Made by a program: the position numbers and the translations under genes. A stretch of 7,122 nt of DNA from an uncultured Bacilli bacterium (GTDB taxonomy: Bacteria; Bacillota_I; Bacilli_A; RF39; UBA660): the NCBI GenBank assembly GCA_949879835.1, contig CATLBU010000037.1, positions 1 to 7,122 of the forward strand. The letters are read 5' to 3'. Every line of letters starts with the position of its first letter. Position 1 is the first letter of the stretch. Below are positions 5,260 to 7,122 of the stretch, in pieces. The notes beneath the pieces were generated by a model that searched no databases, was not told where the DNA came from, and saw only the letters and a list, made by a program, of their open reading frames with translations.

Positions 5260-7122
5260 AATCCATCAATTCTTGTTCTAGAGCTTCTAATGGTTCTTCA
5301 TTTACCATACCTACCTCTAAATCATATTCACAATCACGATATTTTTTTGCTCCTGTTCCAGCAGGAATTAGTTTTCCAATAATTACATTTTCTTTTAGAC
5401 CATTCAAATGATCTACACGACCATGAATAGCTGCATCTGTAAGGATTCTCGTTGTTTCTTGGAAAGAAGCTGCAGATAGGAATGAATCCGTTTCAAGAGA
5501 TGCTTTGGTAATACCAAGTAAAACTGGTCTTCCTGTTGCTGGTCTTTTTCCTTCTAAAATAAGTTGTGTATTAATATCTGTAAATTTATTAATATTTATC
5601 ATTGTTCCTGGTAAGAAATAAGAGTCTCCAGAATTGATGATTTTAATTCTTGAAATCATACGTTTTGCAATAATTTCAACGTGCTTATCTGATATATCAA
5701 CACCTTGTGAACGATATACCTTTTGAATTTCTAATAAAATATATTGTTGAACAGTAATTGGATCTGTTACACTTAAAAGTTCTTTTGGGGAAATAGCTCC
5801 ATGAGTAAGACGATCTCCTGCTACTACTTCGTCTCCCTTACTAACAGCAAGTTTAGCTCCATAATTGGATGTATGAGATTTCGTTTCAACATCATTTTTA
5901 ACAGAAATAACAAATTTACCATTTTGTTCTTCTATTTCACTAACAGTACCATTAATTTCAGAAATCGTTGCTTTTCCTTTTGGATTACGTGCTTCAAATA
6001 ATTCTTGAACACGTGGAAGACCTTGAGTAATATCATCTCCTGCAACTCCACCTGAATTGATAGTACGCATGGTAAGTTGTGTTCCAGGTTCTCCAATGGA
6101 TTGTGCAGCCATAATACCAACTGCTTCTCCAATTTCTACAATATGACCAGTAGCTAAGTTACGTCCATAGCAATGTTTACAAACTCCCTGTTCACATTTA
6201 CAAGTAAGAACTGTTCGAATTCCAACCTTTGTAATTCCTGCATTTATAATTTTTTCAGCAAGTTGTTCTGTAATATAAACATTTCTATCTACTAAGACCT
6301 CTTTCGTTTCTGGATCAATTACCTTTTTGTTAGTATAACGACCAATAATACGATCATATAAAGATTCTACAACTGTTCCATCAGGATTGATAAATGCTTC
6401 TACAACAACACCTTGTTCTGTATTACAATCCTCTTCTTTAATAATGACATCTTGTGCGACATCTACAAGACGACGAGTTAAATATCCAGCATCTGCTGTT
6501 TTTAGGGCAGTATCTACGGCTCCCTTACGGGCACCATGGGTTGCTAAGAAGAATTCTGATACACTAGCTCCTTCTGTAAAGGAAGAAGTAATTGGAATTT
6601 CTACTGCTTCTCCAGTCGGTTTCATCATAAGTCCACGCATACCTGCCATTTGATTGTAGTTAGAAAGATTACCACGAGCTTTTGAGTCGATCATCATCGA
6701 AATTGGGTTATCCTTATTTGTCTTAATGATTTCTTCTAATTCCTCAGCAATTTTATCTTTGGCATTATTCCAGGTTTCTACTACTTTTTTATATCTTTCA
6801 TCTTCTGTAATTAAACCACGTTTATATTGTTTATTTACTTGAGATACTTTTTCATTTGATTCTTTTAGGATATCTTTCTTTGTTTTTGATTCAACAATAT
6901 CTGCTATTCCAATCGAAATTCCTGACAAGGTTGAATATTTAAACCCTAAATCTTTCATTTTATCAAGCATAATGGATGTTTCCGTTGTTTGATAACGTTT
7001 ATAGATTTGAGCAATTAGTTTTGTTAGTGTTCCTTTTGCGAAAGGGGACACTAGATCCATTTTTGCAATTTCTTCTTTAATATTACTTCCCTTTGGCAAG
7101 AAATATTTATTTGGGGTAATTT
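5258..7122 (-). CDS. rpoC: DNA-directed RNA polymerase beta-prime subunit, C-terminal part (5' end outside the window)
   Basis: The frame is open from the right edge (ITPNKYF precedes the TTG at 7099, which is not a true start), leaving about 620 residues of the largest RNA polymerase subunit. Landmarks in order: DSKARGNLSNYNQMAGMRGL; bridge-helix region THGARKGAVDTALKTADAGY; second zinc-binding cluster, with Cys in EEDCNTEQG and CKCEQGVCKHCYGRN; trigger-loop start GEAVGIMAAQSIGEPGTQLT; GDDITQGLPRVQELFEARNP; KHVEIIAKRM; GRPVLLGITKASLETDSF; and ENVIIGKLIPAGTG. There is no room for the large trigger-loop insert of Proteobacteria. The striking change is MRTINSGGVAG, where the family has RTFH: the Phe and His equivalent to E. 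coli F935 and H936 are Ile (6059-6061) and Asn (6056-6058). The gene ends in its own terminator, followed by the NrtR-like gene instead of a ribosomal-protein operon. Confidence 0.98.
   Translation of the reverse strand, partial: ITPNKYFLPKGSNIKEEIAKMDLVSPFAKGTLTKLIAQIYKRYQTTETSIMLDKMKDLGFKYSTLSGISIGIADIVESKTKKDILKESNEKVSQVNKQYKRGLITEDERYKKVVETWNNAKDKIAEELEEIIKTNKDNPISMMIDSKARGNLSNYNQMAGMRGLMMKPTGEAVEIPITSSFTEGASVSEFFLATHGARKGAVDTALKTADAGYLTRRLVDVAQDVIIKEEDCNTEQGVVVEAFINPDGTVVESLYDRIIGRYTNKKVIDPETKEVLVDRNVYITEQLAEKIINAGITKVGIRTVLTCKCEQGVCKHCYGRNLATGHIVEIGEAVGIMAAQSIGEPGTQLTMRTINSGGVAGDDITQGLPRVQELFEARNPKGKATISEINGTVSEIEEQNGKFVISVKNDVETKSHTSNYGAKLAVSKGDEVVAGDRLTHGAISPKELLSVTDPITVQQYILLEIQKVYRSQGVDISDKHVEIIAKRMISRIKIINSGDSYFLPGTMININKFTDINTQLILEGKRPATGRPVLLGITKASLETDSFLSAASFQETTRILTDAAIHGRVDHLNGLKENVIIGKLIPAGTGAKKYRDCEYDLEVGMVNEEPLEALEQELMD

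Follow-up and report, generated by a model that had tools for sequence, protein, structure and literature searches.

We found that the RNA polymerase of an uncultured Bacilli bacterium has asparagine in place of the trigger-loop histidine of RpoC (E. coli position 936), a residue that to our knowledge is nearly universal. The substitution is a real, fixed and clade-wide variant of an active-site residue in a known enzyme, whose neighbouring parts are coupled and perhaps exchanged. The best reading of the data is a working polymerase, the function of which we infer, with Asn936 held constant amid coupled variation. With moderate confidence, we suggest from sequence comparisons that this lineage has an ordinary RpoC in which an ancestral His936 was replaced by Asn, most simply once, and that the Asn would position the substrate and be tuned by neighbouring parts of the enzyme.

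The window, i.e. the whole stretch of 7,122 nucleotides that was analysed, contains a fragment of rpoC in which the Pfam domains RNA_pol_Rpb1_3, _4 and _5 (PF04983, PF05000 and PF04998) scored above their cut-offs. Residues were numbered by alignment with E. coli K-12 RpoC as the reference, in which F935 and H936 are the two sites concerned. From 6070 downward, the minus-strand codons are ATG CGT ACT ATC AAT TCA GGT GGA, so that the reading M-R-T-I-N-S-G-G of the original prediction, including the positions of its Ile and Asn codons, was exact. Its equation of the Asn with E. coli H936 and Rpb1 H1085 agrees with our alignment and with PMC3325174, in which yeast Pol II His1085 is printed alongside E. 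coli 936. The complete trigger loop of the window, GEPGTQLTMRTINSGGVAGDDITQG, including QLTMRTINSGG, retains the NTP-contacting residues Q929, M932 and R933 and has no SI3 insertion. The predicted structure of the RpoC fragment had a mean pLDDT of 61, with about 30 in the trigger loop, and because of these low values no distances were derived from it. The features of the window are collected in Table 1, in which the limits of the bridge helix are taken by us to be E. coli 769-803. We also take F-loop as the name for E. coli 733-750, in the usage of PMC4029172.

Table 1. Coordinates of features in the window
Feature	Position	Strand	Basis or remarks
RNase III	106-780	-	Pfam
Two frames without a Pfam match	837-1358, 4098-4526	-	Pfam search
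ZnuA-type metal-binding protein	1651-2514	+	Pfam
tRNA-Ser(GCT)	3949-4039	-	
C-terminal 620 residues of RpoC (beta' subunit of RNA polymerase)	5258..7120	-	Open frame; cut by the edge; protein 99% identical to that of L047
Trigger loop from E. coli P926 on (residues 345-378 of the fragment)	5987..6088	-	Numbering by alignment; outer limits are the analyst's choice
Loop tip SGGVAGDD, short form, 8 residues between Asn936 and ITQG	6032..6055	-	
Asn codon AAT, E. coli position 936 (E. coli His)	6056..6058	-	Alignment
Ile codon ATC, E. coli position 935 (E. coli Phe)	6059..6061	-	Alignment
Bridge helix, E. coli 769-803	6458..6562	-	Val784 at 6515-6517, Ala793 at 6488-6490
Segment with rim helices and F-loop (E. 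coli 630-782); the window has type I	6521..6940	-	Limits are those of the segment tree
F-loop part, E. coli 733-750	6617..6670	-	N736, N738, M740, A741 and M747 as in type I

Elsewhere in the window, a single minus-strand frame (2524-3846) fuses family-2 glycosyltransferase and methyltransferase domains (Pfam), and an NrtR-type regulator with a weak NUDIX match and a winged helix (4513-5196, minus strand) lies directly downstream of rpoC.

The Asn936 change was confirmed to be genuine and not a sequencing or assembly error, since another genome record, L047, which shares 94.3% DNA identity across the whole window, also has Ile935-Asn936, and since 75 of the 385 genomes sampled from the order of L047 matched the Asn pattern. 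RTINS was present in 33 of 182 aligned RpoC rows, from many assemblies, and among the best 120 protein relatives 62 had Asn and 58 had His at site 936. Searches of the whole genomes of six relatives gave one trigger-loop match per genome and no second, normal rpoC, and by reading there was also one match per genome among the order matches listed. These observations, together with a reading frame that stays open through to the normal end, argue against any artefact, be it an error of sequencing or assembly, decay of the gene or a second, normal copy elsewhere in the genome, and leave it a negligible probability; of the outcomes that might have undone the original prediction, a sequencing error is opposed by L047 and the 33 RTINS rows, and a second rpoC by the searches of the six relatives. 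Because an otherwise normal RpoC without the His was the only one found per searched relative, these polymerases must work without it, and to this extent the His-independent mechanism that had been proposed stands, although its framing as an Ile-Asn change does not.

The change, on whose spread in relatives the original prediction had ventured nothing, turned out to be common in its clade. Our alignment comprised 182 RpoC and 174 RpoB proteins and left out L062 (match ending before the loop), L157 (split frame) and six short duplicates; position 936 was Asn in 105 and His in 77 of the RpoC rows, six pairs of which are identical proteins, each counted twice. The order of L047 is probably, as we assume, the RF39 of GTDB, and one relative, L025, is Candidatus Faecisoma merdavium, placed by NCBI in Mycoplasmatota. 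Pattern searches of the order sample matched the general trigger-loop pattern in 330 of its 385 genomes. The family sample had matches in 113 of 136 genomes, which by reading had Asn in 37 and His in 76, with no other residue. The class sample of 296 genomes, 38 of them belonging to the order by handle number, was searched with the Asn pattern only, which matched five genomes, all five also within the order sample. Matches in the phylum sample (148 of 149 genomes) were read as 145 His, two Asn and one Leu, and the two Asn genomes, G001 and G007, are both members of the order. Beyond the order, the survey covered the class sample and the phylum sample of G001 as well as one family, that of G678; in neither of the two samples was Asn936 found in a genome from outside the order. 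Among the papers listed by searches of the open-access literature, subscription papers being mostly outside the search, none had a title or start of abstract reporting a natural Asn at this site.

Two other variants were observed in the family of G678. In G678 itself, a genome of 0.6 Mb, Leu (CTC) occupies the trigger-loop His position (G678:C1:476519-476549), uniquely among the 75 matched of 79 genomes of the family; this Leu, which may be genuine or may stem from a sequence error, equals the yeast allele H1085L, described as healthy in PMC5127505. In the small genome G709, Gln (CAA) replaces Arg933 and His936 is retained (G709:C1:94695-94725).

On a tree of RpoB and RpoC from which the trigger loop was excluded, the amino acid at 936 changes once, and the Asn rows form one clade with a local support of 0.90. 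A single loss of His936 would be the simplest account of these sequences. L174 (G354:C38:3276-12476), which combines Ile935 with His936 and has a short tip, a long branch and a genome of about 0.6 Mb, adjoins the Asn clade with weak support (0.23) and falls inside it when segment 630-782 is removed, and the grouping of all Asn rows was not rejected (AU p 0.376, 53-row set); with the placement of L174 unsure, a second loss or one reversal is possible. Throughout the Asn rows, the codon at 936 underwent 22 silent changes between AAC and AAT and no amino-acid change, the pattern that selection to keep Asn would give. Thus, of the proviso that Ile-Asn might prove common and functionally neutral, the first half holds in this clade, whereas neutrality is opposed by the codon changes. 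The same counts bear on nearly neutral drift, by which a His dispensable in small-genome bacteria would have been lost through chance fixation, with no compensation and with unrelated variation of the F-loop and the tip. Such drift would agree with the cost of only about 6-fold of H936A in E. coli (PMC3325174), with the small genomes of the order (about 0.6-1.9 Mb among the matches listed) and with the variation of residue 934 in His genomes too; it is nevertheless an unlikely explanation, given the constancy of the amino acid amid silent changes, the restriction of the 113 matched family genomes to His or Asn, and the joint change of residue 934 and tip length described below.

The original prediction regarded the rest of the trigger loop, the bridge-helix region and the zinc cluster as intact, and this held for the catalytic residues checked and the zinc-cluster cysteines. 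RpoC R425, N458, D460, D462, D464, R731, T790, Q929 and M932 and RpoB E813, D814, K1065, K1073 and R1106 were kept in all Asn rows covering them; the NADFDGD metal-binding motif, which lies beyond the window edge in the window itself, had D460, D462 and D464 in 103 of 103 covering Asn rows, and the zinc-cluster cysteines 814, 888, 895 and 898, together with bridge-helix T790, R798 and R799, were present in the window and in all 105 Asn rows. Replacements were seen at R933 (Lys in 8 of 105 Asn rows), K789 (Arg or Asn in 4 of 105) and R744 (Lys in 2 of 105); the Lys933 rows are L015, L073, L076, L077, L079, L094, L095 and L096. The claim did not hold for the surroundings, in which the F-loop and rim helices are very variable and two bridge-helix substitutions, A784V and S793A, accompany Asn936: at 784, 104 of the 105 Asn rows have Val where L174 has Ala, and at 793 Ala is shared by all 105 Asn rows, L174 and three other His rows. 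RpoB positions 676, 677 and 806 also distinguish the Asn clade, as do additional positions remote from the active site. The original prediction suggested a search for compensating changes, and changes close to the active site do accompany Asn936; each of those in the bridge helix and in RpoB occurred only once, however, so that no link between them and Asn936 is provable. RpoC S793 is presumably the counterpart of yeast Pol II T834. In yeast, T834A reduces activity (PMC5127505), by which analogy S793A would be an awkward point for the explanation that we favour.

Asn936 was found in three contexts, T-F-N (33 rows), T-I-N (33 rows, the type of the window) and N-F-N (39 rows). The original prediction had treated Ile-Asn as one unit, which proved untenable, because Asn is fixed across the clade and Ile935 belongs to only one of the three contexts. 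Of the 105 Asn rows, 72 retain Phe935, and those at the base of the clade are T-F-N, so that Ile935 looks later than Asn936 and would be a local adjustment, not an enabling step. Asn934 occurred with a nine-residue tip in 39 of 39 rows and Thr934 with an eight-residue tip in 65 of 66 (the exception being L110); by independent pairs on the tree, by which all coupling was tested, this association had six pairs for, none against and one undecided (p 0.031). By reading, Asn934 accompanies a normal His in nine of the phylum-sample genomes, so it is not special to Asn936. Segment 630-782 of RpoC, which comprises the rim helices, the F-loop and the start of the bridge helix, is of type I in 47 and of type II in 58 Asn rows. 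Ser937 accompanied type I in 46 of 47 rows and Thr937 accompanied type II in 56 of 58; none of the eight independent pairs contradicted this association, for which p was 0.008 with most pairings and 0.031 at the highest. Ile935 was confined to type I with Thr934 (33 of 33), and the combination Thr934-Phe935 was seen in none of the 47 type I rows, but the association of Ile935 with type I was not significant by independent pairs (3 for, 0 against, 1 undecided, p 0.25); residue 934 had no association with segment type (p 0.5).

With the data from the rest of the two proteins in 53 chosen rows, type I as a single clade was rejected (lnL 533 lower, AU p ~1e-97), and the strongly supported branches require at least seven changes of type; the 98-tip tree has nine. 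In seven sister sets hand-picked from the tree, type I and type II sisters were 0.87-0.90 identical over residues 1-600 and 0.52-0.57 over 690-782, whereas type I rows of different sister sets were 0.73-0.82 identical over 690-782. Over residues 783-925, the sister was once more the closer match, both in the case looked at first and on average (0.83 vs 0.80). The alternation would be accounted for most simply by an exchange of the segment together with matching changes in the trigger loop. This account is weakened by the segment data, which on their own gave no rejection of the species groups (AU p 0.059, 0.268 and 0.106) and hence none of vertical descent, and by saturation of third positions (0.60-0.64 in all comparisons), because of which silent-site dating of the exchange failed. 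Silent-site support for exchange was discarded, the choice of best partners having biased the comparison. We suggest only tentatively that this is a natural family of cellular RNA polymerases without the trigger-loop His, which would run on a different catalytic setting and in which the tip, residues 934, 935 and 937 and the rim-helix/F-loop segment may form a co-adapted cassette exchanged between species. If true, evolution swaps a speed or fidelity setting of the polymerase as a part.

The alternation of two segment versions across relationships might also reflect escape from an inhibitor, such as a peptide antibiotic or phage protein acting via the secondary channel or the bridge-helix cap, which would drive turnover of the loop, F-loop and rim helices, the segment versions being exchanged to remain resistant. 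The variable segment spans the F-loop and the bridge-helix start, part of the salinamide target (PMC4029172). At RpoB 677, which salinamide contacts, Lys was found in 93 of 93 Asn rows, but the contact residue R738 was already missing in most His relatives (Arg in 6 of 77 His rows). We know of no inhibitor from the niche of these bacteria, and regard such escape as improbable.

In the explanation that we favour, that of a substrate-positioning Asn, the folded loop would act as a positional catalyst, in which an Asn, unable to serve as a general acid, would take over the contact with the NTP phosphates, and the cost in rate may be made up for by changes that govern the ease of loop folding. The bridge-helix changes would have come first, near the base of the clade, followed by alternative settings, tip length with residue 934 and the rim-helix/F-loop segment with residue 937; in the lineage of the window, the replacement of Phe935 by Ile, which is activating in yeast Pol II, would then have been added. 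An altered speed, pausing or fidelity of the clade polymerase, as first proposed, is plausible.

A role of the trigger-loop His as a base for intrinsic RNA cleavage has been proposed and disputed (PMC8421135). GreA, which does not need the His, may still provide RNA cleavage in the clade. We found GreA in 38 of 40 Asn genomes (37 above the cut-off) and in 37 of 37 His genomes tested, and the GDLSEN motif in 35 of 40 fetched GreA rows, the other five being misread (wrong strand, four) or incomplete (one). A column test of the 40 GreA rows, including these four wrong-strand rows and the incomplete one and with five type I labels taken from a TIN trigger loop instead of the row's own segment, gave no association with segment type above that of shuffled data (0.52 bits for the best column; maximum of 200 shuffles 0.56). 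Loss or co-change of GreA was accordingly rejected. Since GreA is kept and supplies its own acidic residues (PMC7026648), cleavage need not depend on the lost His.

Mutants of yeast Pol II, in which Phe1084, as the neighbour of His1085, corresponds to E. coli 935, bear on this explanation from both sides. H1085N is inviable (PMC3325174), H1085Q has a mild effect (PMC3325174, PMC5127505), and the authors describing H1085L consider a possible bypass of the general acid (PMC5127505). F1084I is superactive, being faster and possibly less accurate, and E1103G rescues H1085A (PMC3325174, PMC5127505). F1084I/H1085Q is viable and F1084I/H1085Y is inviable, and F1084I/H1085N is not among the combinations tabulated in the available part of PMC3325174. 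By this analogy, Ile-Asn in the window may represent a known activating change and, beside it, a change that yeast does not survive on its own; the inviability of H1085N alone and of F1084I/H1085Y would speak against our explanation. H1242A in Thermus costs about 100-fold (PMC3325174), and the yeast, E. coli and Thermus mutants together indicate that the cost of losing the His is context-dependent and that other parts of the loop can make up for it. Whether the His is a general acid or a substrate positioner is disputed (PMC5127505, PMC8421135), and the concept of a positional, not acid-base, trigger-loop catalyst is cited in PMC8421135. A living clade with wild-type Asn, His-keeping sisters and natural suppressor-like combinations offers a ready-made test of these two roles. 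In this clade, the trigger loop is also repeatedly coupled to its tip and to the F-loop and rim helices.

Compared with the loop of E. coli RpoC, that of the clade belongs to the same gene and place and has the same flanking Q929, M932, R933, G938 and G939 and metal-binding aspartates, but it has Asn for His, linked variation of residues 934, 935 and 937, the tip and the F-loop segment, and no SI3. As in the yeast Pol II mutants (PMC3325174, PMC5127505), the same residues are altered and an activating Phe-to-Ile change lies beside a weakened His position; the yeast changes, however, are laboratory alleles, and H1085N is inviable there whereas Asn is wild type in the clade. The RNA polymerase of cyanobacteria, with altered hinges and altered active-site behaviour, is similarly one of a natural lineage with trigger-loop and bridge-helix residues of its own (PMC7026648). 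In that enzyme, the N-terminal part of the trigger loop is that of E. coli and Gre factors are absent (PMC7026648), whereas the clade described here has dispensed with the His and retained GreA.
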